From Gemmatirosa kalamazoonensis (GTDB taxonomy: Bacteria > Gemmatimonadota > Gemmatimonadetes > Gemmatimonadales > Gemmatimonadaceae): DNA of 64,000 nt. A program made the position numbers and the translations under genes. How positions within the stretch are numbered: position 1 is the first letter of the stretch; every line of letters starts with the position of its first letter. This document shows positions 18,301 to 34,050 of this stretch, in pieces. The notes beneath the pieces were generated by a model that saw only the letters and a program-made list of their open reading frames with translations, did no database searches and was not told where the DNA came from. Location: positions 558,001-622,000 of the forward strand of contig NZ_CP007129.1 of the NCBI RefSeq assembly GCF_000522985.1, read 5' to 3'.

Positions 18301-18642
18301 TCAGTGCACCATCGCGTGCAGCGGTCCGGTCGCGCCGCACTCGGTGCACGTCAGGTAGCCGCGGCCGACCACGCGCAGCTCGGTGCGTCGGTCGCAGCCG
18401 TCGCACAGGCCGCGGACCGTCGCGTGCCGCTCCGGCACGAGTCCGGCCTTCGCCTGCAGCGCGTCCATCACCGTCGGCGCCTCCGCGCCGAGCGGACAGC
18501 GCCCCTCGCACCCCTCGCCGAGGTCGAGGCAGATCAGCTCCGCGTCGTGCAGCGACGCCTGACCGTCGTGCAGCGGTTCGTCGGTGAGCAGCGCGCGCAC
18601 GTCCATGTCGCGCACCGAACAGTGGATCGTTGCCTCGCGCAT
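18301..18642 (-). CDS. Cys-rich 113-residue protein at the end of the Rnf operon
   Basis: Unrecognised family. Two Cys groups are visible: CLDLGEGCEGRC (about 38-49) and a C-terminal zinc-ribbon-like pair, CDGC (about 80-83) with CTEC (about 98-101). The first half, rich in Asp and His, reads VRDMDVRALLTDEPLHDGQ. There is no signal peptide or membrane helix, so it is cytosolic. It starts 25 bp after rnfA with GGAGGACACC upstream. The position suggests a link to the Rnf/2-oxoacid oxidoreductase system, perhaps metal handling or regulation, but this is inference. Confidence 0.65.
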   Translation of the reverse strand: MREATIHCSVRDMDVRALLTDEPLHDGQASLHDAELICLDLGEGCEGRCPLGAEAPTVMDALQAKAGLVPERHATVRGLCDGCDRRTELRVVGRGYLTCTECGATGPLHAMVH

Positions 18643-18667: not shown

Positions 18668-19243
18668 TCATGCCGTCCCCATCCCCGCGAATCCCATGAA
18701 CACGAGCGAGAGCATGGCGACGATCAGGAACACGAGCGCCGGCCCCCGCGCGATCGCCGGCACGGGCGCGAACGCCATCCGCTCGCGGATGCCGCCGACG
18801 AGCGAGAGCACGGCCGTGATCCCGAGCCCGCCGCCGACGGCGAACACGAGCCCCTGGAGCAGCGTGTAGCCGCGGTTCGTCTGGAAGATCGTCATCCCCA
18901 GCACCTGGCTGTTGCTGGCGATGAGGGGAAGGAAGATGCCGAGCTCCCGGTACAGCGGGGGGCTCACCTTCTTCACGAACAGCTCCACGATCTGCACGAT
19001 CGACGCGATCGCGACGACGAAGGAGATCACGCGCAGGAACGGCGCGGCGTCGAGCACGAACGCGTTCAGCGCCCACGCCGCGAGGCTCGCGAGCACCATC
19101 ACGAACGTCGTCGCGAGCCCGAGCCTGAGCCCCGTGACGCTCTTGTTCGTCACGCCGATCACCGGGCACAGGCCCAGGAAGTACACGAGGACGAAGTTCG
19201 TGACGACCGCCGCCGACACGAAGATCCAGAACATGTCGCTCAT
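18668..19243 (-). CDS. rnfA: Rnf complex membrane subunit RnfA
   Basis: A 191-residue, six-helix subunit. With RnfE it forms the inverted-symmetry membrane core holding an Fe-S centre between the two subunits in Rnf/Nqr pumps. The N-terminus FVLVYFLGLCPVIGV has the first ligand Cys (Cys26), and LATTFVMVLAS and GGIRERMAFAPVP are typical. The second ligand region, TNCAVLG in E. coli RsxA (from memory), reads SNSQVLG here, with Ser112 (codon AGC) instead of Cys. The start overlaps the rnfE stop by four bases (ATGA). It is the last classical subunit in the operon. Confidence 0.95.
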   Translation of the reverse strand: MSDMFWIFVSAAVVTNFVLVYFLGLCPVIGVTNKSVTGLRLGLATTFVMVLASLAAWALNAFVLDAAPFLRVISFVVAIASIVQIVELFVKKVSPPLYRELGIFLPLIASNSQVLGMTIFQTNRGYTLLQGLVFAVGGGLGITAVLSLVGGIRERMAFAPVPAIARGPALVFLIVAMLSLVFMGFAGMGTA

Positions 19244-19959
19244 ACGAGTGCGGCCTCCCGCTCCCGCTCCCGCTCCGTCGTGCGCGGCGGCGAGACGACC
19301 GTCGCCGCGGCCGGCGCCGCCCGACGCTCGCGCGCCAGCTTCCGCAGGCCGTGCCAGTTCGCCACGAGCAGCAGCACGCCGATCATGAAGAAGCCGCCCG
19401 GCGGCAGGAGCATCACGACCCACGGCTCGAACGCGTGCGGCATGACCTGCACGCCGAGGAACGTGCCGTTGCCGAGCACCTCGCGCGGGATGCCCATCAG
19501 CAGCAGCGCGATCGTGAACCCGGTGCCGTTGCCCAGCGCGTCGAGGACCGAGAGCGCGATCGGCTGCCGTGACGCGAACGCCTCCTGTCGGCCGAGCACG
19601 ATGCAGTTCGTGATGATGAGCGCGATGTACGGCCCCATCGCCTTGTGCACGTCCGGCACGAGCGCCTCGAGCGTCATGTCGGCGATGGCCAGGAAGGTGG
19701 CGATGATCAGGATGTACGTGGTGATGCGGATCTGGTGGGGGATGATCCTCCGCAGCGTCGACACGATGACGCTCGACCCGACGAGCACGAACGTCGTGGC
19801 GAGGCCCATCGCGAGGCTGTTGGCGACCGCGTTGGTCACCGCGAGCGCGGAGCAGAGCCCCAGCGTCTGCACCAGCACCGGGTTCTCGTGCCACAGCCCG
19901 CGCGTGAGCACGGCTCCCGCGCTCGTCGGCGCCGACGACTCCGCTCTGATCATGCTCAT
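19240..19959 (-). CDS. rnfE: Rnf complex membrane subunit RnfE
   Basis: A 239-residue, six-helix partner of RnfA. It shows LTRGLWHENPVLVQTLGLCSALAVTNA with Cys36 and IITNCIVLGRQEAFA with Cys119, the two expected cluster ligands. LDALGNGTGFTIALLLMG and LLPPGGFFMIGVLLL are further family landmarks. The C-terminus has a repetitive Glu-Arg tail (TEREREREA) encoded by four CTCCCG-type units. The start lies 17 bp after apbE and the stop overlaps rnfA, which supports one transcript. Confidence 0.95.
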   Translation of the reverse strand: MSMIRAESSAPTSAGAVLTRGLWHENPVLVQTLGLCSALAVTNAVANSLAMGLATTFVLVGSSVIVSTLRRIIPHQIRITTYILIIATFLAIADMTLEALVPDVHKAMGPYIALIITNCIVLGRQEAFASRQPIALSVLDALGNGTGFTIALLLMGIPREVLGNGTFLGVQVMPHAFEPWVVMLLPPGGFFMIGVLLLVANWHGLRKLARERRAAPAAATVVSPPRTTEREREREAALV

Positions 19960-19975: not shown

Positions 19976-20956
19976 TCAGATGATGCGGGCGAGCTGCGCG
20001 CCCGGGAGGTTCCGCGCCAGCTCGCGCACGATCTCCGGCTCGCTCATGCCGAACAGCGCCGTCGTCGCCGCGTCGGCGCGCATCACGGAGTCGGCGACGA
20101 TGGAGAGGCTCTGCATCGCCGTCGCGCGCGGCCGCGCGGTGGCCGGATCCATGATGTGGTGGTACCGGCGCCCGCGGTATCGGAAGAACTGCCGGTACGT
20201 GCCCGACGTCGCGACGGCGCGGTCGGCCAGGCGCAGCGTCCCGGCGAGCGCGCGCTCGTCGGTCGGCGACTGGATGCCGATCGTCCACGGCGCGTCGTCC
20301 GGCGCGGTGCCTAACGCGTACAGATCGCCGCCGGCCACCACGACCGCCTTCGCCACGCCGTGGCGTCGCAGCGCCGCCACCGCGCGATCCACCCCGTACC
20401 CCTTGGCGACGCTGCCGAGGTCGAGCCGCGCGCCGTCGTCGTGGTAGCGCAGCACGTGGCCGCCGCCGCGCGTGCCCAGCTCCACCGCGCGGTGGAACCG
20501 GCGCCCCGCCAGCTCGGCCACGCGGTCGTCCGGCGGCGGCTCGTGGCGGTGCTTCACGTCCCAGAGCACGCACACGGCGCCGACCGCCGGGTCGTAGCGG
20601 CCGTCGAGCGCGTCCGCCCAGCGCAGCCCTTCGGCCGCGACGTACGCCGTCTCCGGCGTCACCGCGACGGCGTCGCGCATCGCGAGGCGGTTCGCGCGGC
20701 CCACGTCCGACGTGTCGGTGAAGCGCGTCATGGTCCGCTCCACCCACCGCAGCTCGGCCACCGCGGCGTCGATCGCCGCGTGCGCGTGCAGCGGGTCGCG
20801 GTCCACCACCGCGAACTGCGCGATGGTGCCCATCACGGGGACGCTGCGCCGCACCACCCCCGCGGGACGCCGCCGGGCGAGCGGCACCGCCGCGACGACG
20901 AACGCGCCCACGGCGAGACCCATGAACTCGCGGCGGCCGATCTCTGTGCTGGTCAT
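19976..20956 (-). CDS. apbE: FAD:protein FMN transferase ApbE
   Basis: A 326-residue exported enzyme that attaches FMN to Thr of flavoprotein subunits, here presumably RnfD and RnfG. A twin-arginine-like leader (GRREFMGLAVGAFVVAAVP) precedes the ApbE domain: VMGTIAQFAV, MTRFTDTSDVGRANR, DLGSVAKGYGVDRAV, VAGGDLYALG, HHIMDPATARP and the Mg-binding SVMRADAATTALFGMS. It sits inside the rnf operon with its start overlapping the 48-residue Cys-rich gene by four bases. A motif copy (20309) encodes the Leu-Gly of YALGTA. Confidence 0.94.
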   Translation of the reverse strand: MTSTEIGRREFMGLAVGAFVVAAVPLARRRPAGVVRRSVPVMGTIAQFAVVDRDPLHAHAAIDAAVAELRWVERTMTRFTDTSDVGRANRLAMRDAVAVTPETAYVAAEGLRWADALDGRYDPAVGAVCVLWDVKHRHEPPPDDRVAELAGRRFHRAVELGTRGGGHVLRYHDDGARLDLGSVAKGYGVDRAVAALRRHGVAKAVVVAGGDLYALGTAPDDAPWTIGIQSPTDERALAGTLRLADRAVATSGTYRQFFRYRGRRYHHIMDPATARPRATAMQSLSIVADSVMRADAATTALFGMSEPEIVRELARNLPGAQLARII

Positions 20957-21099
20957 CGCTTCGCTCCCCTGGATTCGCAGCCCCCGTCGCCCGTGCACCC
21001 CGCGCAGCGTCCGTCGCAGCCGTCCCGGTCGCGCGGACGCAGCGCGCTGAACAGCCCGAACAGCAGCGCCGCGCCGATCACGCCCACGATGGTCGTCAT
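20953..21099 (-). CDS. 48-residue Cys-rich membrane peptide (NqrM-like candidate)
   Basis: One membrane helix (TIVGVIGAALLFGLFSAL) is followed by RPRDRDGCDGRCAGCTGDGGC and a short basic end, with four Cys in a CxxxCxxC plus CxxxxxC pattern. The start overlaps the rnfG stop (TGATG) and its stop overlaps the apbE start (ATGA), so it is a real translated gene. NqrM (DUF539), a single-helix four-Cys protein next to apbE in nqr operons, is needed to mature the Fe centre of Na+-NQR. This gene could play that part for RnfA/RnfE. It is shorter than NqrM, and FeoB-associated Cys-rich proteins also look like this. Confidence 0.7.
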   Translation of the reverse strand: MTTIVGVIGAALLFGLFSALRPRDRDGCDGRCAGCTGDGGCESRGAKR

Positions 21100-21764
21100 C
21101 ACGGCCTGGCCTCCTCGCGATAGGCGTCCATGAGCGGCTGCCAGCGCGCGATCGCGTCGTCGATGATGCGGATGACCGCGCGCGACGAGATCGTGGCGCC
21201 GGTGATCATCACGACGTCGTTCGGCGTGGTCTTGCCGCGGTCCTTCTTCACGCCGGCGACCGGCGCGACGACGTTCGCGAACCCGTTCACGAACGCGCTG
21301 TCCTTGTCGATCTTGTCGCCGAGCCCCGGCGTCTCCTTGCTGGAGATGACGCGCATCGCGATGAGCGTGTGCGCCGCGGCGTCGTAGCCGAACATCACGG
21401 TCACGGGATCCTGGAAGCCGTTCCCCGTGGCGCTCACCGCGAAGCCGATGCGCTTCCCCGTCGCGTCGTGGCCGAGGTAGATCTTCTCGAGCCCCTTCGC
21501 GCTCGTCCCCGCCGGCAGCGTCTTCACGAGCGCGCCCTTGGCGAGATAGAGCGTGTCGAACGACCGCGGCGCCTCGAGGACTTCCTGGATCGCGGCGCGC
21601 ATCACCTCGCTCTTGTGGTGCTCGATGCGCGGCAGCGTGAGTCGGTACGCCGTCACGATCAGCAGCCCGGCGAGCGCGCCGGCCGTCGTCATCAGCGACA
21701 GCAGCCGCCACGACGGGACGTCGCGGCCGAGCACCGGCGGCGCGGACGTCATCCCCATGCTCAT
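21099..21764 (-). CDS. rnfG: Rnf complex flavin subunit RnfG
   Basis: A 221-residue protein with one N-terminal membrane helix (LLSLMTTAGALAGLLIVTAY) and a periplasmic FMN-binding domain. It has HTLIAMRVISSKETPGLGDKI and the covalent flavinylation motif ITGATISSRAV, where the Thr of GAT is the FMN attachment site used by ApbE. The DSAFVNGFANVVAPVAGVKKD region is typical. Both ends overlap neighbours (ATGA with rnfD, TGATG with the small Cys-rich gene). FMN in RnfG passes electrons in the membrane arm between the RnfB/RnfC side and RnfD. Confidence 0.94.
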   Translation of the reverse strand: MSMGMTSAPPVLGRDVPSWRLLSLMTTAGALAGLLIVTAYRLTLPRIEHHKSEVMRAAIQEVLEAPRSFDTLYLAKGALVKTLPAGTSAKGLEKIYLGHDATGKRIGFAVSATGNGFQDPVTVMFGYDAAAHTLIAMRVISSKETPGLGDKIDKDSAFVNGFANVVAPVAGVKKDRGKTTPNDVVMITGATISSRAVIRIIDDAIARWQPLMDAYREEARP

Positions 21765-22777
21765 GCGGGCACCTCCTTCGCGGCGCGCACGCGCGTGCCG
21801 AACGGCCGCGGCTGCGTCACGCGGTTGATGAACGGCACGAGCGCGTTCATGAGCAGGATCGCGTACATCACGCCCTCGGGCAGCCCGCCCCACGTGCGGA
21901 TGACGACGACCAGCACGCCCACGCCGGCGCCGAACAGCCACCGTCCGCGGTCGGTCACCGGGGCGGTCACCATGTCGGTCGCCATGAACACCGCGCCCAA
22001 CACGAGCCCACCGGAGAAGAGCATGAACGGCGCGGACGCGTAGCGCGCCGGGGCGACGGCGTGCAGCGCCGCGGCGAGCAGCGCCACCGTCGCGAGGATG
22101 CTCGCCGGGATGCGCCAGTTCAGATACCCGCGCAGCGCGAGATAGCCGCCGCAGAGCAGGATGACGAGTGCCGCCGTCTCGCCGAGCGAGCCGCCCGTCG
22201 TGCCGAGCACGAGGTCGAGCAGCGGGGTGCCCCGGTGCTCGAACTTCAGGAGGCCTAACGGCGTGGCGGCGGTGATCGCGTCCACGGCGCCGCCCTTCAG
22301 CAGCGGCAGCGCGAAGTTGTCGCCCCGCAGCGCCCACCACGACCCGCCGACCTTCGGCCACGTCGTGATCGCGACCGGGAACGCCGCCTGGAGGAACGCG
22401 CGGCCGAGCAGCGCGGGGTTGAAGATGTTGTACCCGAGCCCCCCGAACAGCAGCTTGCCGAAGCCGATCGCGAATGCGCCGCCTAACGCGGCCATCCACA
22501 GCGGCATGCCGGCGGGCAGCGTGAGGCCGAGCAGGATGCCGGTGATCGCGGCCGAGCCGTCGCGCAGCGTGCCTCCCGTGCCGAACGCCCGCTCGGTGCC
22601 GACGGCGCCGACCACCGCCGCGGCGACGACGAGCAGCGCGCTCGGCCCGAAGAGCCACGCCGCCGCGAGCACGATCGGCGCGAGCGCCCCGACGACGTTC
22701 CACATGATGGTCGCCGTGCCGTCGCGTCCCTTGATGTGCGGCGACGCGGCGATGACGAGCGTGGGGTCGCGTGTCAT
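21761..22777 (-). CDS. rnfD: Rnf complex membrane subunit RnfD
   Basis: A 338-residue protein with about nine or ten helices. Landmarks are VIAASPHIKGRDGTATIMWNV, NIFNPALLGRAFL, the flavinylation site DAITAATPLGLL (Thr before P-L), and SGGLVLGAVFMATDMVTAPVT. RnfD carries a covalent FMN and is the likely ion-translocating subunit, homologous to NqrB. The start overlaps the rnfC stop (ATGA). Two motif copies (22253, 22491) encode Leu-Gly, one inside the flavinylation segment. Confidence 0.95.
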   Translation of the reverse strand: MTRDPTLVIAASPHIKGRDGTATIMWNVVGALAPIVLAAAWLFGPSALLVVAAAVVGAVGTERAFGTGGTLRDGSAAITGILLGLTLPAGMPLWMAALGGAFAIGFGKLLFGGLGYNIFNPALLGRAFLQAAFPVAITTWPKVGGSWWALRGDNFALPLLKGGAVDAITAATPLGLLKFEHRGTPLLDLVLGTTGGSLGETAALVILLCGGYLALRGYLNWRIPASILATVALLAAALHAVAPARYASAPFMLFSGGLVLGAVFMATDMVTAPVTDRGRWLFGAGVGVLVVVIRTWGGLPEGVMYAILLMNALVPFINRVTQPRPFGTRVRAAKEVPA

Positions 22778-24153
22778 GCGCCCGTCCCCGCCATCACGCG
22801 TCGCCGGAGTGCCGACTTGCTCGCCGCGAACAGCTGCGCGAGCGGGATGTTCGACGGGCAGACGTAGCTGCACGACCCGCACAGCATGCAGTCGCTCAGG
22901 TGCTCGGCCGCCATCTCGTCGTGGCGGCCGGCGCGCGCGAGGTCGCCCAGCAGCGACGGGTTGAGGAACATCGGGCACGCGTCGAGGCACCGGCCGCAGT
23001 GGATGCACGGCAGCGCGGCCTGGTCGCGCACCTCGTCGTGCGTGAGCACCACGACGCCGGTCGTGCCCTTGAGGATCGGCGCGTCGAGCGTCGACACGGC
23101 GGTGCCCATCATCGGCCCACCGAACAGCACCTCCGCCGCGTCGTCCGTCAGGCCGCCGCAGTGCGCGAGCAGGTCGCCCACCTTGGTGCCGACGGGGACG
23201 ATCAGGTTCGCGGGACGCCGGACGCCGTGGCCGCTCACCGTCACGATGCGCTCGACGAGCGGCAGCCCGGTCTCGAACACCTCGGCGATGGTGGCGATCG
23301 AGCCGACGTTCTGCACGATCGCGCCGACGCTCGCCGGCAGCTGGCCCGACGCGACCTCGCGGCCGAGCACCGACTTGAGGAGCATCTTCTCCGCGCCCTG
23401 CGGGTACTTGACCGTGAGCGGGAGGATCTCGACGTCGTCGTTGCGGAAGCCGTTGCCGTTCGCCGCGCGCAGCGCCGCGATCGCGTCGGGCTTGTTGCGC
23501 TCGACGCCGATCACGCACCGCTTCGCGCCGAGCGCGTGCATCATGATGCGCACGCCGAACAGCACGCGGCGCGGATACTCCACCATGATGCGGTGGTCGG
23601 TCGTGAGGTACGGCTCGCACTCGGCGCCGTTCACGACGAGCGTGTCGATCGCGGCGTCCGCCGGCGGCACGAGCTTGACGTGCGTCGGGAATGCCGCGCC
23701 GCCGAGCCCCACGACGCCGGCGTCCTGCACGGCGCGCACGACGGCGGCGCGCGTCAGGCCGTCCCACTCCGGAACGACGCGCGGCCGCGCGATCTGCGCC
23801 GACCACCTGTCGACCGCGATGCGGACCGCGGTGCACATCGAGCCGTCGGGGTGCGGCCACAGCGCGACGTCGACGACGCGTCCCGACGCGGACGCGTGCA
23901 CGGGCGACGACACGAAGCCGTCCGCCTCCGCCACGACGTCGCCGCGCTCGACGTGCGCCCCCTTGCGCACGATCACGCGCGCCGGCTTGCCGGCGTGCTG
24001 CCGGACGGGGAGCACGACCTCGTCGGGGTACGGCATGCGGCGGATCGGGAGCGCCGCCGTGAGCTCCTTCGACTCCGGCGGATGAACCCCGTGCGCGAAC
24101 GCGTGCGCGCTCGCGCGGAACCGCGTCAGAAGGCCTGCGCGCGCTTCAGCCAT
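22774..24153 (-). CDS. rnfC: Rnf complex NADH/ferredoxin-facing subunit RnfC
   Basis: A 459-residue soluble subunit. An N-terminal lipoyl-like domain (KPARVIVRKGAHVERGDVVAE) precedes an NADH/FMN-binding SLBB-Nqo1-like core (VVGLGGAAFPTHVKL, VVNGAECEPYLTTDHR, GVERNKPDAI) and two [4Fe-4S] motifs, CIHCGRCLDACP (about 375-386) and CMLCGSCSYVCP (about 415-426). It takes electrons to NAD+. The chosen ATG at 24153 overlaps the end of nifJ by 28 bases. Homologues vary in the N-terminus, so the start is less certain than the rest. Confidence 0.94.
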   Translation of the reverse strand: MAEARAGLLTRFRASAHAFAHGVHPPESKELTAALPIRRMPYPDEVVLPVRQHAGKPARVIVRKGAHVERGDVVAEADGFVSSPVHASASGRVVDVALWPHPDGSMCTAVRIAVDRWSAQIARPRVVPEWDGLTRAAVVRAVQDAGVVGLGGAAFPTHVKLVPPADAAIDTLVVNGAECEPYLTTDHRIMVEYPRRVLFGVRIMMHALGAKRCVIGVERNKPDAIAALRAANGNGFRNDDVEILPLTVKYPQGAEKMLLKSVLGREVASGQLPASVGAIVQNVGSIATIAEVFETGLPLVERIVTVSGHGVRRPANLIVPVGTKVGDLLAHCGGLTDDAAEVLFGGPMMGTAVSTLDAPILKGTTGVVVLTHDEVRDQAALPCIHCGRCLDACPMFLNPSLLGDLARAGRHDEMAAEHLSDCMLCGSCSYVCPSNIPLAQLFAASKSALRRRVMAGTGA

Positions 24154-27100
24154 TTGTCGAGATCCTTCTCCTTCGGATTGAGCGGCGTCCCCGGGTGGAT
24201 CGCCGAGACCGGGCACTTCTCCGCCGCCATGACGAGCTGCGCGAACGTGCCGGCCGTCGCGTCCTTGACGTAGGCTTGCTTGTCGGCGTTGTAGGCGAAG
24301 AGCTTCTTGTTCAGGTTGATGCACTCGTTGCACGTCGTACAGCGATCGGACTCGATGTACGCATCGACGGCGAGCGCGTCGACGGCGGCGTTGCCCCGTG
24401 CTTCGGCGACGGCCATGGGAGATTCGGCGATCGGCTTCGCGACGATCGGTGGCTGGGACTCTTCGTTTTTCACCGCAGAGGACGCAGAGGACGCGGAGGA
24501 CGACGCTGCTTTGGTGGTTTCCTCTGCGGCCCTCTGCGTCCTCTGCGGTTCGATGCTTTCGGCGGCACCGCCGTCAGGCACCCGAGCGAGCAGCTCGCGC
24601 ACGGTCATCTCGCCGCGGCTGGAGCGCAGCAGCGTCTCCGCGAGCCGAGTCGCGATCGTCTGCGGGTAGCTCGCCTTCAGCTCGGCGATCTTCGCCTCGT
24701 ACTCGCGCCGCGCCGCGTCGAGCCGCGCCTCGAGCGCCGCCTCGAGCGACTCGGCCACGCGCTCGCGCACCGTGTCGCTCACGCGGACGCCGGCCAGCTC
24801 GCGGAGCTGCGCCCAGAAGAGCTGGCGCTCCTCCGCCAGCCGCACCATCTCGTCCGACACGCTCCACCGCGCGAGCGTCCTCTCGCGCGTGAGCACGTAC
24901 ACGAACGGCCGCCGCCCGGCGCGCGCCTCCGCCGACGCGGCGAGGTACTCGTGGAACGGCATCGGCGCGTCGTCGTCCTGCGCGATCGGCGTGAAGTGCT
25001 TGCGGAAGCGTCCCTCCGTCGCCGCCCAGTCGGCCGTCGTCAGCGGGAGCTCCATCGAACGAGCGGCGCCGTCGGCGTCCACGTACTCCAGCGTGTACGT
25101 CGGCCACGCGTCGTCGAGCGACGGATTGCCGTCGAGCGAGAGGCACTGCGCGAAGCTCGGCCCCGCGTCCGGGTCGAACGTCACGAACGGGAAGGCGCGC
25201 GACTCGAGCGCGAGGCGCGCCGCGTGCTGCGCCGAGTCGTCGGCCAGCCCGTGCTCCACTGGGCACGGCGTGTAGATGTTGAACAGCGCCGGTCGGCGCT
25301 TCTGCAGCCCGCGCAGCACGCCGGCCATCAGGTGCGACGCCGACGCCTGTGACGACTGGTGCACGTACACGCCGCGGTGCGCGAGCGCGATGAGCGCGAG
25401 CTCCTTGCGCACTTCCGTCTTGCCGTGCGTCGCCGCGCCGTACCATGCCATGTCCGACACCTGGCCGGTGAAGCCGCTCGTGCACGCCTGGCCGCCGGTG
25501 TTGGAGTAGACCTGCGTGTCGAGCACGATGACGCGGATCGGCTTCGCGCTCGCGAGCAGGCGCGAGAGGTTCTGGAACCCGATGTCGAGCATCGCGCCGT
25601 CGCCGCCCATCGCCACGATCGGCGGGCAGAGCGCGAACTCGTCGTCGGTGAACGTCCGCCAGTCGAGGTCCGCGAGCTCCCGCTCGGTGGACTGCGCGTC
25701 GTACGTCCCGCCCAGCAGCGTCTCCGCGCGCCTCACCGCGGCGAAGCCGTCCGCCATCTTCCGCATGTGCCCCTCGAACACGCCGATGGCGAGCGACGGG
25801 CTGTCCTGGAAGAGGTGGTTCGCCCACGGGAACGGGTACGGGTTGAACGGGTACGTGCTCGCCCACACGCTCGAACAGCCGGTGCTGTTGGCCATCGCGA
25901 GGTGCGCGCGGCCGCGCGTGCTCGGGCCCTCGGCGTAGCGCCAGCGCAGGTCCTTCAGGTCGTGGATCGCCCGCGTCAGGCGCTCCATCTCGCCGCGCTT
26001 CTCGTCGTCGAGGTCGAGCGTGAGATGCCCCCCCACGCGCATGACCGCGTCGAGGTCGGCGTCGGCCGAGAGCAGCCCGCGCGCCTTCGCGTCGAGGCCG
26101 GCGATCAGCTCGCCGAGCCGCGCGATCTGCCGCTCCACGCGCGGCCGCATCATCGCCTCGATCGCCGAGACGACGAGGTGCACCGCGGTCTTCTCACCGC
26201 ACCCCATGCATGCGCCGTCGCCGCCGGCCATCGAGCGGTAGCTCTCCTTCCGGAGCAGAAGCGTCGGCAGCACGCCGATCCCCTGATCGATGTCCGACAC
26301 GTTCACGAACCGGCTCGGCGTGTCGGGAAGGCGCTGCCAGATCCGCCAGTTGTCGCGGAGCGTCGCGACCGTCGCGTCGTCCTGCCTCACGGTCACGAGC
26401 GCGCCGTCGGGGCACACGTCGACGCACAGGTTGCATCCCTTGCACGCCTCGGGGTTCACCGTCACCGAGAGCAGCCCGCCGCTCCCCTTCTGCCGGCGCT
26501 CCGCGCCGTCCCAGAACGTCTTCGTCTTCGCGAGCGGGAACTCGGCGATCGCGGCGCGCACGAGCGCCAGCTCCTCCTCGACGGTCGCGCGCTTCGCCGC
26601 GTCGGGCACGAGCTTCGGCAGCACGTTCGTCGCCGCGGCCGCGAGCGTGTCGGCGAAGCTCGTGAACGCCTCCGCGCCGACGAGGCGGCGCACCTCTCTG
26701 CCTAACGGCTTGAGGAGCGGCTTCACGCGGTCGATGGTGCCGCGCGTCGCGGCGTGGGCCGCGGCTGCCGCGAGCACCTCCTCGGGATCGCTCACGAGCC
26801 CCGGGATCGCCGCGTCGGGGCACTGCGTCCAGCACTGCGCGCAGCCGGTGCACTTCTCGGCGAGGAACCGCGGCACCTCGAGGCGCACGTCGGTCATGTC
26901 GCGCACGGCGCTCGTCGCCGCGGGGATCGCGCCGATCGCCGCGAACGGGTCGGCGATGCCGTCCTGCCCGAGCTTGCACGGCACGCACACCTGCTCCCAG
27001 AACCGCCCCGGATTCCCGACGCCCCACTCGGCGTCGGGCGCATCGAGCAGGGCGGGCATCGCGGGCACCGCGCCGGGCGCGGCGTCGTCGGCGAGCGCGA

Positions 27101-29243
27101 CCGGCGTCACCTCGCGCACCTCCGTCGCGCCGCGGCGGATGACGCGCAGGTTGTCCTCGACCACGCGCTCGCCCTTCGCGCCGAACTTCTTCGCGAGCTG
27201 CTTGCGGATCCCCGCGAACAGCTTCTCGTCCGCGACGCCCTCGCGCGCGAGCAGCGGCGACGTCTCGAAGAACGCGCCCATGAACGCCGCGCCCTGCATG
27301 CGGTACCGCAGCTCCGCGTCGCTCGCCTCGCTCTGCGCGATCGCGAACGCGTCGAGCACGAAGACCCTGACCTTCCTCGCCACGATCTCGCGCCGCGCGC
27401 GCGCCGGCAGCGCCGCCCAGAAGTCCGCGGGCGCGAGGTCGCTCTGGATCACGAACACGCCCCCGTCGCGGATCCCGGCGAGCGGGTTGGAGTGGCGGAA
27501 CACGTTCGGGTCGGGCGACAGCACGACGTCGACGTGCGTCAGCTCGCAGTTGAGCCGGATCGGCTCGTGCGCGAACGTCGCGTAGAACGTCGTCGGCTGC
27601 CCCTTCTTCTCCGAGCCGTACTTCGGGTTCGCCTTGATGTGCATGCCGAGCAGCTCGAAGACCGTCATCGCGACGTTCTTCCCCATCGTGATCGCGCCCC
27701 AGCCGCCCACCGAGTGGATGCGCAGGGAAACGGAGCCGTTAGGCATCAGATCGAGGTCGCCGGCGCTCGGCAGCGACAGGTCGGCCAGGTGCGGGTAGCT
27801 CTCGAGGAGCTGCTCCTGCCAGATCTGGAGCTTGGGCAGCCGCGTCTCGGGCCGCACGAAATCGACGCCGAGGTAGAACTGCCGTCGGTGCGCGCCGGCC
27901 GGCGTCATGTTCAGCACGGCCGCCGCGATGTCGCCCGGCTGCAGGTCGCGGCTGCCCAGCCCGAAGCAGCCGGCGTAGAACTCGGGCACCTCGTCGGCGT
28001 CGACCGCGGCGACGCGCGGGTGCGGCAGCACGGCGTTAGGCGCCGCCGCCAGGGCACGTCCGTTCTCGACCCCCTGCCCCATCGCCGCGCGGATCTCGCG
28101 CAGCAGCGGCGGGTCCACGGCGAGCGGCTGGTCGGTGCGCTCGAGCACCACGACGGCCTTCTTGCCGGCGAGCAGCCGCGTGACGAGATCCGCGGGGAAC
28201 GGCCGGAACATCGTGAGATTCAGCACGCCGGCCTTCAGCCCGTGCGTCGCGCGCAGCCAGTCGGCGACCGCCTCGGCGTTCGACACGACGCTGCCCTGCC
28301 CCACGACGACGTACTCCGCGTCCGCGAGGCGGTAGCCGCTGCACCGCGCATGGCGGCGTCCGGTGAGGCGCGCGAACTCCTCCATCGCGCGGTCCGTCAG
28401 CTCGGCGACGTGGTCGAAGTAGAACGGCCGCTGCGCGGCGACGCCCTGCGCGAAGCTGTCCTGGTTCTGCACCACGCCGAGCATCGCCGGGTGGTCCACG
28501 GCGAACAGCTCGGGGATGCGCCGGCGCTTCGCGCCGAACACGAGCCGTTGGGCGGGCGTCGGCGCGTCGATCACGTCGGACGGATCACCGAGGAACTCGC
28601 GCACGAGGCCCGGCTCGGGCGCGCGCATCGTCTCGAGCACGTGGCTCGTAAGGAACCCGTCCTGCGCGACGATCCCCGGGTTCAGCGACAGCTCGGCGAC
28701 CCGGTGCGCGATCAGGTTCAGGTCCGCCGCCTCCTGCACGTCCTTCGCGAAGAGCTGGAAGAACCCCGTGTCGTCGACCGCGTGGTAGTCGTCGTGCCCC
28801 GCGTGCACGTTGAGCGCGTGCTTCGTGATCGCGCGCGCGGCGATGTTCAGCACGTACGTGAGGCGCTTCCCGACCGCGGGATAGAGCGACTCGTGCATGT
28901 ACACGACGCCCTGGCCGCTCGAGAAGTTCGCGGCGCGCAGGCCGGTCATGCTCATCCCGGCGGTGACCGCGGCGGCGGCGTGCTCGCCCTCAGGCTCGAA
29001 GAACAGCAGCTTGCGGCCGTTGACGTTGCGCTTCCCCTCGGCCACGGCGGCGGCCCACCCCTCGCCCATCTGCGTGGAGGGCGTGATGGGGTAGGCGCCG
29101 GCACCCTCGCTCGCCGCGGTCTCGACGAGCACGACGGCCGTGCTGCCGTCCATCGCGCTCGGCGTGCCCGGATAGCGAGGCGGGGCGGCCGGCACGTCAG
29201 GCTTCGGCGCTGCGGCTCTCGCCGCCTTCCCGAACGTGATCAC
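24126..29243 (-). CDS. nifJ: Giant pyruvate:ferredoxin (flavodoxin) oxidoreductase with C-terminal ferredoxin domain
   Basis: A 1705-residue PFOR, about 500 longer than the usual 1170-1200. Order: pyrimidine-binding domain (AYPITPSTQMGE, about 50), domain II, gamma-like domain (GWGAITMGKNVA, about 510), EKR/ferredoxin region with CTGCAQCWTQCP (about 796) and CKGCNLCVDVCP (about 933) some 135 residues apart, then the TPP domain (GACMGCGEKT near 1009, GGDGAMLDIGF near 1214, DTQVYSNTGGQ). Added are a helical extension, a Ser/Ala/Glu linker encoded by a palindromic repeat (1565-1591) and a terminal ferredoxin-like module with CTTCNEC (near 1636) and EKCPVSAIHPG. It oxidises pyruvate to acetyl-CoA. 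GTG start overlaps the rnfB stop (GTGA). Confidence 0.94.
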   Translation of the reverse strand: MITFGKAARAAAPKPDVPAAPPRYPGTPSAMDGSTAVVLVETAASEGAGAYPITPSTQMGEGWAAAVAEGKRNVNGRKLLFFEPEGEHAAAAVTAGMSMTGLRAANFSSGQGVVYMHESLYPAVGKRLTYVLNIAARAITKHALNVHAGHDDYHAVDDTGFFQLFAKDVQEAADLNLIAHRVAELSLNPGIVAQDGFLTSHVLETMRAPEPGLVREFLGDPSDVIDAPTPAQRLVFGAKRRRIPELFAVDHPAMLGVVQNQDSFAQGVAAQRPFYFDHVAELTDRAMEEFARLTGRRHARCSGYRLADAEYVVVGQGSVVSNAEAVADWLRATHGLKAGVLNLTMFRPFPADLVTRLLAGKKAVVVLERTDQPLAVDPPLLREIRAAMGQGVENGRALAAAPNAVLPHPRVAAVDADEVPEFYAGCFGLGSRDLQPGDIAAAVLNMTPAGAHRRQFYLGVDFVRPETRLPKLQIWQEQLLESYPHLADLSLPSAGDLDLMPNGSVSLRIHSVGGWGAITMGKNVAMTVFELLGMHIKANPKYGSEKKGQPTTFYATFAHEPIRLNCELTHVDVVLSPDPNVFRHSNPLAGIRDGGVFVIQSDLAPADFWAALPARARREIVARKVRVFVLDAFAIAQSEASDAELRYRMQGAAFMGAFFETSPLLAREGVADEKLFAGIRKQLAKKFGAKGERVVEDNLRVIRRGATEVREVTPVALADDAAPGAVPAMPALLDAPDAEWGVGNPGRFWEQVCVPCKLGQDGIADPFAAIGAIPAATSAVRDMTDVRLEVPRFLAEKCTGCAQCWTQCPDAAIPGLVSDPEEVLAAAAAHAATRGTIDRVKPLLKPLGREVRRLVGAEAFTSFADTLAAAATNVLPKLVPDAAKRATVEEELALVRAAIAEFPLAKTKTFWDGAERRQKGSGGLLSVTVNPEACKGCNLCVDVCPDGALVTVRQDDATVATLRDNWRIWQRLPDTPSRFVNVSDIDQGIGVLPTLLLRKESYRSMAGGDGACMGCGEKTAVHLVVSAIEAMMRPRVERQIARLGELIAGLDAKARGLLSADADLDAVMRVGGHLTLDLDDEKRGEMERLTRAIHDLKDLRWRYAEGPSTRGRAHLAMANSTGCSSVWASTYPFNPYPFPWANHLFQDSPSLAIGVFEGHMRKMADGFAAVRRAETLLGGTYDAQSTERELADLDWRTFTDDEFALCPPIVAMGGDGAMLDIGFQNLSRLLASAKPIRVIVLDTQVYSNTGGQACTSGFTGQVSDMAWYGAATHGKTEVRKELALIALAHRGVYVHQSSQASASHLMAGVLRGLQKRRPALFNIYTPCPVEHGLADDSAQHAARLALESRAFPFVTFDPDAGPSFAQCLSLDGNPSLDDAWPTYTLEYVDADGAARSMELPLTTADWAATEGRFRKHFTPIAQDDDAPMPFHEYLAASAEARAGRRPFVYVLTRERTLARWSVSDEMVRLAEERQLFWAQLRELAGVRVSDTVRERVAESLEAALEARLDAARREYEAKIAELKASYPQTIATRLAETLLRSSRGEMTVRELLARVPDGGAAESIEPQRTQRAAEETTKAASSSASSASSAVKNEESQPPIVAKPIAESPMAVAEARGNAAVDALAVDAYIESDRCTTCNECINLNKKLFAYNADKQAYVKDATAGTFAQLVMAAEKCPVSAIHPGTPLNPKEKDLDKWLKRAQAF
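24471..24549. repeat. Palindrome of CGCAGAGGA-type units inside nifJ (family B)
   Basis: The arms at 24471-24500 and 24520-24549, each of about three tandem 9-base units (CCGCAGAGGA, CGCAGAGGA, CGCGGAGGA), are nearly perfect reverse complements around a 19-base loop. The element lies in frame within nifJ and encodes the linker PQRTQRAAEETTKAASSS before the added ferredoxin domain. The unit design matches family A. Similar Thr-Gln-Arg-rich insertions are familiar from other soil bacteria (memory, not searched). Confidence 0.85.
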
Positions 29244-30154
29244 TGGGCGGTCTCCGTGAGGGCGTCTCCACGCTCCGCGCTCCACGCTCCCCGCTCGCTT
29301 CGTTCTGCACCGATGCCGAGCGTGGAGCGTCGAGCGGGGAGCGTGGAGGGATTCTCGAACTGCGCGCGCGTCATCCACACGATGGCGCCGGTCGGGCAGC
29401 GCCCGACCGCGTCCGGCGCGGCGAGCGCGTTCAGCTCGTAGTTCACCACCGCCACGCCGCTCTCCACGCTGATCAGTCCGGGCGCGGCGTCGAGGACGCA
29501 TCTGCCGCACGCCGTGCACGCGACCTTGCACGCGTCGAGCGCGTCGTCGCCGGCGACGAGGTTCCTGCACTGCACGAGCAGGCGGTGGTCGAGCGGGTGC
29601 AGCGTGAGGAGGCCCTTGGGGCACGGCTCCACGCACTTGCCGCACGCCGTGCACGCGTCGACGTCGACGAGCGGGATGCCGTCGTCGCTCATGCGCATCG
29701 CGCCGTACGTGCACGCCGCGACGCAGTCGGCGAGGCCGAGGCACCCCCAGGCGCACCCCTTCCCGCCGCCGGCGACGGCTGCCGCCGCGGCGCACGTCGG
29801 GAAGCCGCGGTACTGGGCCTGCTGGGCCGCGACGTGCGCGCCGCCGGCGCAGTGCATGCGCGCCACGACCTTCACCGCCTGCCCCGCCTCGACACCGAGG
29901 TACGCCGCGATCGCGGTGCGCTGGTCGTCGTTCGCGACGTTGCACCCGGACGGCTGCCTCTCGCCGCCGACCAGCAGCTCGGCGAACGCGCGGCACCCCG
30001 GCACGCCGCACGCGCCGCAGTTCGCGTTAGGCAGCATCGCGGCCACGGCGTCGATGCGCGGATCCTCCCACACGCGGAGCTTGCGGTTCGCGAGCGCGAT
30101 GAGGACCGCGAACACGAGCCCGATCCCGCCGAGGATCGCGACGGCGGTGATCAT
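29240..30154 (-). CDS. rnfB: Rnf complex iron-sulfur subunit RnfB
   Basis: A 304-residue protein. An N-terminal membrane helix (AVAILGGIGLVFAVLIALA) precedes the RnfB 4Fe-4S domain (NANCGACGVPGCRAFAELL plus a later Cys). Ferredoxin-like clusters follow: CAWGCLGLADCVAAC, CTACGKCVEPCP, CKVACTACGRC and RCPTGA. It is the ferredoxin-oxidising entry of Rnf. The last 30 or so residues (from about STLPARRSTLG) are encoded by a palindromic repeat and have no family counterpart. rnfB is usually grouped with the other rnf genes, but here nifJ separates it from rnfC. It starts by ATGA overlap with the preceding gene. A motif copy (30026) encodes the Pro-Asn just before the first Cys. Confidence 0.95.
   Translation of the reverse strand: MITAVAILGGIGLVFAVLIALANRKLRVWEDPRIDAVAAMLPNANCGACGVPGCRAFAELLVGGERQPSGCNVANDDQRTAIAAYLGVEAGQAVKVVARMHCAGGAHVAAQQAQYRGFPTCAAAAAVAGGGKGCAWGCLGLADCVAACTYGAMRMSDDGIPLVDVDACTACGKCVEPCPKGLLTLHPLDHRLLVQCRNLVAGDDALDACKVACTACGRCVLDAAPGLISVESGVAVVNYELNALAAPDAVGRCPTGAIVWMTRAQFENPSTLPARRSTLGIGAERSERGAWSAERGDALTETAQ
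29266..29348. repeat. Palindrome of CTCCACGCTCC units at the end of rnfB (family C)
   Basis: The arms at 29266-29296 and 29318-29348, each a run of CTCCACG/CTCCNCG units, pair across a 21-base loop. The element lies within the last codons of rnfB and adds an Arg/Ser/Glu-rich tail to the protein. The unit sequence differs from families A and B but the architecture is the same. Confidence 0.8.
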
Positions 30155-31185
30155 AGCCCCGCCTCCGCGAGGAGCCACCGGACGAGTGCATCGGGACTCG
30201 GGACTCGGCCCGACGGGACTCGGGCCGACGGGACTCGGGACTCGGGACTCGGGACTCGTGGGCTGACAGCGCCCGAGTCCCGAGTCCCGAGTCCCGAGTC
30301 CCGACCGCCCAGGGCCGCGAGCTGCGCCAACTCCTCGCGCAGCTGCCACGCGCTCCGGTCGCCCGATCCGGTCGCGGGCGCGGCGGCCGGGAGCGCGTGC
30401 ACGGCGAGGCGCTCGGCGAGCGTGCCGCCGGCCGTCGGGTCGTGCACGAACCGCGCGGCGCTCTCCGGCACGAGCGCGGCGACCGCTGGCCCGTCGAACG
30501 ACGCCACCGTCGCGAGGTCGTTCGCGTTCGCGGTCTGCATCACGAGCACGCCGGGCGTGATCAGCCGGACCAGGGGCGCGCCCGCCGAGGCGCCGCGCAC
30601 CACCAGCACGAGCTTCATCTGCCCGTCGAGCAGCTCGGCCAGCGACACGGCCCGCAGGTCGGCGTCGTCCACCTCGATGACCAGCGGCGGCGCGAGGTCG
30701 CGCGCCGCAGCGTTCCACCGCGCGAACGGCAGGCCGTCGAGCGGCGGCGCGTGCGTCTCGGCGCGGTACACGCCGGCCCGCACGGCGCGGAACACGCGCC
30801 CCGCGGCGTACGCCCGGCCTAACGACGTGACGGCGCGCTGTACGGCAGCGTGGAGGTCTCCGCCGGGCGGGACGTCCACCGCGAACGCCGCGTCGCCGGC
30901 CGCGTGCAGCGTGCGCAGCACGTCGCCCGCGCGCCGGAGCGCGAACGACGACTCGGGCGCGAGGGCCGGCGCGGTATCGAACAGCGCGGCGAACCGCGCG
31001 GCGTCCACGCGCCCGCGCGCGAAGGCGCCCAACGCCGCGAGCGCCGGCGTCTCCGCGTCCGCCGCGCGGTGCGCGTCGAGGTACGCGTCGATCTGCTCCG
31101 CCGCCGCGACGACCGCGGCGCGGAACCGCTCGCGCGGCACGGCGGTCGCCGCGAGCGCGACCGCGATCTGGTCGTCAGACGGCAT
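30151..31185 (-). CDS. Protein of unknown function between korB and rnfB
   Basis: A 344-residue protein I do not recognise. The body (about 1-295) is Ala-rich and looks globular. An N-terminal helical part (PRERFRAAVVAAAEQIDAYLDAHR) is followed by an alpha/beta-looking segment, LVIEVDDADLRAVSLAELL, KLVLVVRGASAGAPLVRLITPGVLVMQTAN and VASFDGPAVAALVPESAARFVHDP. There are no Cys, signal peptide or membrane helices, so it is soluble. The final 50 residues are largely encoded by a GGGACTC repeat, ending with a short helix DALVRWLLAEAGL. It overlaps korB by 11 bases and rnfB by four, so it is firmly in the operon; a role in the 2-oxoacid oxidoreductase/Rnf junction is inferred from position only. 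Confidence 0.75.
   Translation of the reverse strand: MPSDDQIAVALAATAVPRERFRAAVVAAAEQIDAYLDAHRAADAETPALAALGAFARGRVDAARFAALFDTAPALAPESSFALRRAGDVLRTLHAAGDAAFAVDVPPGGDLHAAVQRAVTSLGRAYAAGRVFRAVRAGVYRAETHAPPLDGLPFARWNAAARDLAPPLVIEVDDADLRAVSLAELLDGQMKLVLVVRGASAGAPLVRLITPGVLVMQTANANDLATVASFDGPAVAALVPESAARFVHDPTAGGTLAERLAVHALPAAAPATGSGDRSAWQLREELAQLAALGGRDSGLGTRDSGAVSPRVPSPESRVPSARVPSGRVPSPDALVRWLLAEAGL
30192..30303. repeat. GGGACTC heptamer array with inverted half (family D)
   Basis: GGGACTC units run from 30192 to 30258, some separated by short spacers, and the reverse complement CGAGTCC repeats four times from about 30273 to 30303, so the two halves can fold into a long hairpin. It is inside the coding region upstream of rnfB and encodes repeated Arg-Val-Pro-Ser and Arg-Asp-Ser-Gly runs. 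There are no unique spacers, so it is not CRISPR. Confidence 0.85.
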
Positions 31186-32137: not shown

Positions 32138-34050
32138 GCGTCACCTCGCGTCGTGTTAGGCACCTTCGCGCGGATCGCATCGAGGATCGCGCCGGGGTGC
32201 AGCGGCTCGCCCGGCACGCGCGTCCAGCAGTCGACGTCCACGAGCGTCGACGCGCGCAGCAGCCACGCGAGCTGGCCGAGGCGCCGATTCTCCGGCGTGA
32301 TGTACGGCGCGTCCGGCTCGTCGCTGTAGTTCAGCTCCACCGTGCACACGCGCCGGAAGCGCGAGAGGATCTCGCGCAGCCCGGGCGGGAGCGGCGACAG
32401 GAAGGTCAGATGCAGCGACGAGACGCGCAGCCCCGCGGCGCGCGCGCGGGCGACCGCCTCCTCGATCGCGCCGCGCGTGCTCCCCCACCCGACCACCAGC
32501 AGGTCGCCGCTCTCGTCCCCGTTCACCGTCGGCGGCAGCAGCGTGCGCTGGAGCACCGCGAGCTTGCGGCTCCGCATCGCGGCGCTGTGCTGATGGATGC
32601 CGCCGCCGTACGCCACCTTGCTGCGCGCGTCGTGCTCGAGCCCCGTGACCGTGTGCATCCCGTTCGGCTGCCCCGGGATCACGCGGCGCGACAGCCCCGT
32701 CGCCTCGTCCCAGTCGTAGGGCTTCGTCCCCTCGGGGACCGCGTCCTGGTCGAGCGCCGCACGCATCCACCGCTCGTCGAGCGCGGGGCGCGGGAACGGC
32801 GCCACGCCGGTCGCGAGGTTCGCGTCGGACAGCACCACCACGAGACAGCGGAACGTCTCGGCGATGCGCCGCGCCGTCACCATCACGTGGAAGCATTCCT
32901 CGAGCGTCGACGGCGCGAGCACGACCTTCGGCGCGTCGCCGGGCTGGCCGTGGAGCACCGCGAGCAGGTCCGACTGCTCCACCTTCGTCGGCAGCCCGGT
33001 GCTCGGCCCGCCGCGCTGCACGTCGACGACGACCAGCGGCGTCTCCGTCATCACCGCGAGGCCGAGGAACTCCGTCTTCAGCGCGAGCCCGGGGCCGCTC
33101 GTGATCGTCAGCGCGACCTTCCCCGCGTACGACGCGCCGAGCGCCACGCCCGCCGCCGCGATCTCGTCCTCCGCCTGGTGCACGATGCCGCCGAACCGCT
33201 CGAACGTCTCGCTGAGGGCGTGCGACGCCGACGTCGCTGGCGTGATCGGGTACATGGCGCACAGCTCGAAGCCCGCCGCCACCGCGCCTAACGCGATCGC
33301 CTCGTTGCCGTTCATCACCACCATCGGCACGTCCGTGCCGCCCTGCGCGGAGCGCGGGGGCACGTCGACGCGGAAGTCGAGGTTCGCCTCCGCCCACGCC
33401 CACCCGAGGTCGAGCAGCGCCACGTTCTGCCGGTAGCTCTCCTCCGACTTCTTGCGGAAGGTCTGCGCGATCTGCTCGAGCAGCCGCGCGCGGTCGCGCC
33501 CGTAGATGCACGCCAGCATCCCGAGCGCGAACATGTTCTTTCCCTTGCGCGCATTGTCGACGAGCGTGAGACACTGCTCGTCCATCGGCACCTCGACGAC
33601 GCGGTAGGCACGCGTCGCGAGCTCCGCGAGCGCCGCCGCGTACGCGGCGCGCACGTCCTCGTCGGGGTGCGACGCCCACGCGCGCTCGAGCAGCACGATC
33701 GCGTCCGGCGCGAGCGCGCCGAGCCGGTGGCGCGCGAGCAGCACCTGCTCGTTGAACGCGACGACCAGGTTCGTCTCGTCGCCCCAGTTCGTCACCGGGC
33801 CGGTGCCGATGCGGATGCGGTTTCCGCTCGCGCCCTCGGGGATGCGCGGCGGCGGCTGGATCTCGGCGGGGATGATCTCCACCGTCCACACGCCGTTCCC
33901 CATCTTCGCCGACACGGCGGCGAAGATCTGCCCGCACTTCTGCGCGCCCTCGCCGGAGTCGGAGACGATCTCCACGGTGTGCTCCGGGCAGCGCAGCACG
34001 TGTGGCGTGCGCGGTGGGGCTGCACTCGTGGGCATGAGCGTCGACGTCAT
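32134..34050 (-). CDS. korA: 2-oxoacid:ferredoxin oxidoreductase gamma-alpha fusion subunit (KorA type)
   Basis: A 638-residue fusion. The N-terminal gamma domain (about 10-210) has SDSGEGAQKCGQIFAAVSAKMG and ERAWASHPDEDVRAAY. The alpha domain (about 225 on) has GNEAIALGAVAAGFELCAMYPITPATSASH, ITSGPGLALKTEFLGLAVMTE, DVQRGGPSTGLPTKVEQSDL and a C-terminal transketolase-like domain with LVVGWGSTRGAIEEAV. QRGGPSTGLPTK is diagnostic of the 2-oxoglutarate/2-oxoacid class. It is the first gene of the ferredoxin block, 146 bp after the upstream USP gene, and that gap probably holds its promoter. Confidence 0.92.
   Translation of the reverse strand: MTSTLMPTSAAPPRTPHVLRCPEHTVEIVSDSGEGAQKCGQIFAAVSAKMGNGVWTVEIIPAEIQPPPRIPEGASGNRIRIGTGPVTNWGDETNLVVAFNEQVLLARHRLGALAPDAIVLLERAWASHPDEDVRAAYAAALAELATRAYRVVEVPMDEQCLTLVDNARKGKNMFALGMLACIYGRDRARLLEQIAQTFRKKSEESYRQNVALLDLGWAWAEANLDFRVDVPPRSAQGGTDVPMVVMNGNEAIALGAVAAGFELCAMYPITPATSASHALSETFERFGGIVHQAEDEIAAAGVALGASYAGKVALTITSGPGLALKTEFLGLAVMTETPLVVVDVQRGGPSTGLPTKVEQSDLLAVLHGQPGDAPKVVLAPSTLEECFHVMVTARRIAETFRCLVVVLSDANLATGVAPFPRPALDERWMRAALDQDAVPEGTKPYDWDEATGLSRRVIPGQPNGMHTVTGLEHDARSKVAYGGGIHQHSAAMRSRKLAVLQRTLLPPTVNGDESGDLLVVGWGSTRGAIEEAVARARAAGLRVSSLHLTFLSPLPPGLREILSRFRRVCTVELNYSDEPDAPYITPENRRLGQLAWLLRASTLVDVDCWTRVPGEPLHPGAILDAIRAKVPNTTRGDA

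Follow-up and report, generated by a model that had tools for sequence, protein, structure and literature searches.

An apparently unique RnfA variant with serine at a cluster-ligand cysteine position in the Rnf complex of Gemmatirosa kalamazoonensis

Introduction

In Rnf and Nqr, the AE1 cluster is thought to relay electrons and also to trigger ion translocation; the four cysteines that hold it are described as invariant and essential. In A. woodii, the ligands of this intramembrane [2Fe-2S] cluster are C25 and C113 of RnfA and C25 and C108 of RnfE; in the model for this complex, electrons pass from RnfB through AE1 to RnfG, and Na+ is attracted, once AE1 is reduced, to a site to which T111 (RnfA) and V106 (RnfE) contribute their backbones and T110 its hydroxyl (PMC11889175). 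A T110G mutant does not grow, and a growth phenotype is absent in T111G (PMC11889175). The second of the RnfA ligands is called an “invariant cysteine” in C. tetanomorphum (PMC9588780), and the ligand pairs of V. cholerae Nqr are NqrD-C29/NqrE-C120 and NqrE-C26/NqrD-C112 (PMC9325719).

Changes to these residues have been made in the laboratory. Cysteine mutants at the AE1 cluster of A. woodii Rnf lose activity, growth and the cluster itself (PMC11889175), and NqrD-C29A of V. cholerae Nqr is cluster-less (PMC10643135). According to Fadeeva et al., as cited in PMC9325719, the conserved cysteines of Vibrio Nqr are needed for folding or stability. The V. cholerae variant NqrE-C120S, the laboratory equivalent of the natural serine described here, appears among the constructs of PMC10643135.

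Results

The rnf operon of Gemmatirosa kalamazoonensis

The genome of the soil bacterium G. kalamazoonensis KBS708 consists of a 5,312-kb chromosome and elements of 1,106, 1,041 and 21 kb; the assembly, polished with Quiver, is based on PacBio data at a depth of about 100x (PMC3974934). The window, i.e., the whole stretch of 64,000 nucleotides analysed here, carries an rnf operon that is located on the 1.1-Mb megaplasmid (1,106,233 bp). Its genes are as follows.

29240..30154, minus strand: rnfB, polyferredoxin subunit, conserved Cys 20/20
24126..29153, minus strand: por, large fused 2-oxoacid (pyruvate):ferredoxin oxidoreductase within the rnf operon, conserved Cys 22/22
22774..24153, minus strand: rnfC, conserved Cys 10/10 kept
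21761..22777, minus strand: rnfD, FMN attachment motif AATPLG intact
21099..21764, minus strand: rnfG, FMN attachment motif ITGATISS intact
19976..20956, minus strand: apbE, flavin transferase, between rnfG and rnfE
19240..19959, minus strand: rnfE, ligands Cys36 and Cys119 kept (its only two Cys)
18668..19243, minus strand: rnfA, RnfA/NqrE family, 191 aa, Ser112 variant, matching PF02508 and TIGR01943

All frames of this rnfB-por-rnfC-rnfD-rnfG-apbE-rnfE-rnfA series are open, and a single operon encodes subunits B, C, D, G, E and A together with ApbE. Overlaps of 4 bp join rnfG to rnfD, rnfD to rnfC, and rnfE to rnfA, where the start of rnfA sits on the stop of rnfE (ATGA). Every gene of the operon has a GC3 of 0.94-0.98, against GC2 of 0.42-0.56. 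The 4Fe-4S motifs of RnfB and RnfC are intact (30/30 conserved Cys), as are the covalent FMN motifs of RnfD and RnfG. The whole genome encodes one RnfA and one RnfE, which belong to its sole Rnf complex; no second, canonical RnfA was found in it, and there is therefore no canonical backup. Complex I is present.

General decay of the Rnf complex was considered and rejected, since all eight genes from rnfB to rnfA are intact, RnfD and RnfG keep their covalent-FMN motifs, and 55 of the 56 conserved cysteines across RnfA, RnfE, RnfB, RnfC and POR are retained, the missing one being RnfA Cys112. The suggestion in the initial annotation of a degenerating Rnf thus finds no support for the complex as a whole, with its other ligand cysteines and its frames in place, and could hold for the RnfA/RnfE step only.

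Several features of the operon and its flanks may be recorded in their own right. The por product has 1,675 aa and its gene lies between rnfB and rnfC, a por-rnfC arrangement that recurs across Gemmatimonadota and in metagenome-assembled genomes (MAGs) labelled as three other groups; the presence of por inside the rnf operon suggests a dedicated oxidoreductase feeding Rnf. A second POR_N domain is encoded close upstream on the same strand (32623-33288) within a 639-aa open frame, probably the alpha subunit of a 2-oxoacid:ferredoxin oxidoreductase. Directly upstream of rnfB, and overlapping it, is a gene for a 344-aa protein (30151-31185) that has no Pfam or NCBIfam match; homologues with 42-51% identity over part of its length adjoin the rnf-por cluster in six relatives. 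Directly after rnfA there is a gene for a Cys-rich, zinc-ribbon-like protein of 113 aa (18301-18642), with no family match, that is kept downstream of the cluster in five relatives (37-41%). The N-terminus of ApbE has a twin-arginine-like signal (RREFMG).

Family membership and fold of RnfA

The protein is RnfA by fold, profile and operon. It matches PF02508 over its full length (E 6.8e-47, 160 bits, cut-off 23.8), and its best NCBIfam match is TIGR01943 (E 1.4e-57), where its 195.2 bits lie under the curated cut-off of 229.3. Six Cys-bearing relatives also miss that cut-off (215.6-226.4 bits), which places the whole subclade below it. Since RnfA proteins of this por-linked subclade (L003, L004, L019-L022) score slightly under the curated TIGR01943 value, automatic pipelines may under-annotate them. 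An AF2 single-chain model of moderate quality (pLDDT 68, TM 0.83 to 7zc6_A) has the six transmembrane helices of the family, with the first helix broken at residues 24-25; a break in the fourth helix was not seen in this moderate model.

The ligand site

The reading frame of rnfA runs on the minus strand from 19243 to 18671, with the stop at 18668. The features of the ligand site are listed below.

19166..19168, minus strand: codon of RnfA Cys26, first ligand, kept
18908..18910, minus strand: Ser112 codon AGC, in place of the second cluster-ligand Cys, otherwise invariant in RnfA
18893..18919, minus strand: remodelled stretch of half-helix IV, residues 109-117, A-S-N-S-Q-V-L-G-M

Around the ligand site RnfA reads LPLIA-S-N-S112-Q-V-LG, and the Ser112 motif is LPLIASNSQVLG. 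In phmmer comparisons with PDB chains, Ser112 aligns with the invariant second cysteine of RnfA from C. tetanomorphum, A. vinelandii and A. woodii and of NqrE from V. cholerae; the matched motifs are TTNCAVLG (7zc6, 8ahx and 9eri RnfA) and VNCAIFG (V. cholerae NqrE). Only three of the four ligand cysteines for the intramembrane [2Fe-2S] are thus present. Cys26 is the sole cysteine of RnfA, and a scan of both RnfA and RnfE found no replacement cysteine elsewhere in either protein. In terms of sequence, RnfA is confirmed to have lost a ligand cysteine of the cluster, one of four, and it is by this one feature, a four-Cys site usually taken as defining, that Gemmatirosa RnfA fails.

The initial annotation had placed a serine at a ligand cysteine position within 18890-18920, which agrees with the codon found here, and its residue numbers for the retained RnfA Cys26 and RnfE Cys36 and Cys119 are correct. 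Its assignment to Gemmatimonadota also holds. The centre that the four cysteines hold is a [2Fe-2S] cluster rather than a single Fe (PMC9325719, PMC10643135, PMC11889175). Its alternative, a cysteine supplied from elsewhere in the structure, is excluded within RnfA and RnfE.

The serine does not stand by itself. Seven positions within residues 109-117 are invariant among 12 relatives that have this gene cluster, and six of them differ in G. kalamazoonensis, with T109A, T110S, A113Q, I114V and L117M accompanying Ser112.

Distribution of the serine

Genomes were searched in the family (179) and order (288) and in samples of the class (394) and phylum (249). Among 124 distinct RnfA/NqrE-type sequences, mostly from Gemmatimonadota but also including three MAG loci of other phyla and six phylogenetically distant copies from plasmid records, 123 have Cys at the aligned position and Gemmatirosa kalamazoonensis alone has Ser. 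The next residue, 113, is Ala in 121, Cys in two and Gln in one, again Gemmatirosa. The RnfE-type paralogues keep Cys at their matching position without exception (79/79). A second Ser-bearing RnfA was found neither in these family, order, class and phylum sets, nor in the six plasmid-record copies, nor in a pattern scan of 84,980 species genomes; a scan of viral contigs for the variant also returned nothing. Because the peptide-pattern scan of those 84,980 genomes yielded no near relative of the protein either, Gemmatirosa RnfA is a singleton so far, in a genus represented by a single genome. Ser112 RnfA is therefore apparently a unique natural variant of a known machine, as judged from these sequences. 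In one sequence of the set, RnfA of genome G460 (L141), the motif is TTNCCVLG, with a second Cys right behind the ligand Cys.

All of the relatives read at family, order and class level carry Cys here. The initial annotation took such a result as a sign of a single mutation or error, but this does not follow, because neighbouring invariant residues have changed as well, in steps of more than one base, and unusual substitutions are numerous elsewhere in RnfA.

Divergence of the cluster-holding subunits

RnfA is the fast-evolving subunit of what is, by its sequence, an otherwise normal complex. Compared with the 12 relatives, 18 of its 80 invariant positions are changed, the maximum for any other member being seven when each was left out in turn. 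The corresponding counts are 2/137 for RnfC and 2/106 for RnfD, and RnfE (7/54) has a milder acceleration than RnfA. In maximum-likelihood trees, the Gemmatirosa terminal branch accounts for 0.60 of a total length of 2.36 in RnfA (25%) and for 10-14% in each of RnfE, G, D, C, B and ApbE. Changes in RnfA are densest at 109-117, with six in nine residues (P about 0.006 on shuffling among invariant columns). Those in RnfE include P37S, at the residue following Cys36, and V116I, near Cys119; position 117 is Thr in Gemmatirosa and Val or Ala in the relatives. Given the acceleration of RnfA and these RnfE changes near Cys36 and Cys119, both subunits that build the cluster site have changed, RnfA the most.

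Discussion

A possible remodelled, serine-ligated cluster

Ser112 appears to be a genuine product of evolution in a single subunit, not an error. We consider the chances about even that this is a bona fide lineage-specific Rnf variant in which AE1 and the ion site are remodelled, probably with a 3-Cys/1-Ser cluster. By analogy with the Nqr pairing, RnfE Cys36 would share one iron with RnfA Ser112, and RnfA Cys26 the other with RnfE Cys119; the cluster would be kept by three Cys and the oxygen of Ser112. Electrons would still pass from RnfB through the cluster to RnfG, and the potential of the cluster, the charge distribution of its reduced state and its ion coupling would be altered. The more polar neighbours Ser110, Gln113 and RnfE Thr117 may help to make room for the oxygen ligand, or for an ion or proton site that has changed. 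Tuning of the redox potential by Ser112 is plausible. Rather more tentatively, the complex may be the first natural Rnf or Nqr with a Ser-ligated intramembrane [2Fe-2S], with compensation in half-helix IV and with pumping at a shifted potential or with another coupling ion.

Serine ligation appears to be the most economical reading. It is favoured by the uniqueness of the serine at a site that is a ligand Cys in four solved complexes, by the intact operon and kept cofactor motifs, by the RnfA fold and the acceleration specific to RnfA with its clustering at 109-117, and by the lack of a canonical backup. Serine replacements in [2Fe-2S] ferredoxins usually retain the cluster and lower its potential. 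Engineered Ser-ligated [2Fe-2S] ferredoxins, which also count in favour of Ser ligation here, are those of Fujinaga (1993) and Cheng (1994), as listed in PMC9737848 (refs 53 and 93). Counting against it are the A. woodii Cys mutants (PMC11889175), NqrD-C29A (PMC10643135), the Vibrio results of Fadeeva et al. in the form in which PMC9325719 cites them, and the occurrence of the serine in one genome alone. The A. woodii AE1 Cys removals and NqrD-C29A are, however, changes without compensation.

The chief alternative is a complex that lacks its cluster or is impaired: AE1 would be lost or labile, the transmembrane step would suffer, and constraint on RnfA, and partly on RnfE, would have relaxed in a bacterium equipped with complex I. 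Conservation of the other subunits would then reflect either the recency of the change or another role for them, e.g., cytoplasmic electron transfer by RnfB/RnfC with POR. We regard this as rather unlikely but deserving of weight: in the systems tested, removal of cysteines that bind AE1 is inactivating (PMC11889175, PMC10643135), the acceleration is greatest in RnfA and next in RnfE, the two cluster-holding subunits, and the RnfA acceleration could equally mean relaxed constraint. Yet RnfA keeps 62 of its 80 invariant positions, in an open frame with strong codon-position structure, and its changes gather at the ligand site instead of being spread evenly. RnfD and RnfG, moreover, evolve at normal rates with their FMN motifs intact, and both are meaningful only with transmembrane electron flow. 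A different departure from serine ligation would have Ser112 as a mere spacer, with the thiolate replaced by another atom (Gln113, Asn111, or water/hydroxide) or with a different metal centre. Gln113 in place of a nearly invariant Ala beside the site, and the polar groups added by Ser110 and RnfE Thr117, would fit such a centre, which we nonetheless consider quite improbable; Ser112 lies exactly at the ligand position of the helix break, Ser is the usual isosteric replacement, and extra Cys are absent from RnfA and RnfE.

The origin of the gene is a separate matter, compatible with any of these mechanisms. Replacement of an rnfE-rnfA block from an unsampled divergent lineage, with Ser as the state of the donor, could account for a gene order that differs exactly at rnfE-rnfA/apbE (rnfG-rnfE-rnfA-apbE in all 12 relatives, rnfG-apbE-rnfE-rnfA in Gemmatirosa), and the RnfE tree placement lacks resolution. 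In a tree without NqrE, on the other hand, RnfA groups with the same clade as RnfC and RnfD (support 73, vs 100), an agreement that favours change in place, and no donor was found in the 84,980 species genomes (by peptide pattern), 72,556 plasmids or the phylum sample; we think replacement improbable. When NqrE is included, Gemmatirosa RnfA is drawn to the NqrE group, which is taken as long-branch attraction because it joins its expected clade once NqrE is left out. Sequencing or assembly error, finally, is extremely unlikely. One base, TGC to AGC, is enough for Ser alone, and there is a single genome, but the change of the neighbouring Ala to Gln needs at least two base changes, several other neighbours differ and the frame is intact; the conversion of the usually invariant Cys-Ala-Ile to Ser-Gln-Val would have required several base errors in an assembly of about 100x.

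If a natural, intact complex lacks one AE1 Cys, it offers a ready-made test of how much the ligation can vary with pumping preserved; alternatively, it would exemplify a pump whose redox gate subunit is the first to go.

Comparison with known systems

Gemmatirosa RnfA resembles that of the A. woodii (9eri) and C. tetanomorphum (7zc6) Rnf complexes in fold, length and the FLG(L/I)C motif, and has half-helix motif two in the same place within a full RnfB, C, D, G, E and A set. It differs from both (C25/C113 there) in having ASNSQVLG for TTNCA(V/I)LG; the A. woodii residues T110 and T111 of RnfA and V106 of RnfE correspond to Ala109, Ser110 and Thr117. The subunits of A. vinelandii Rnf1 (8ahx) and V. 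cholerae NqrE (7xk3, Cys26/Cys120) are homologous and of the same topology, aligning over residues 7-188 or 9-188, but all four ligands are Cys in A. vinelandii Rnf1 and V. cholerae Na+-NQR. Closest in organization are the rnfB-por-rnfCDGEA-apbE clusters of other Gemmatimonadota (L120-L128), which have the same genes, including the pyruvate:ferredoxin oxidoreductase-like gene within the operon, and which recur in MAGs labelled Gammaproteobacteria, Phycisphaerae and Deltaproteobacteria (L019-L021). Their subunits are mostly 40-72% identical to those of Gemmatirosa. In contrast to Gemmatirosa, these clusters have Cys throughout and apbE after rnfA, and their RnfA proteins are 58% identical to Gemmatirosa RnfA, compared with 71% among themselves.
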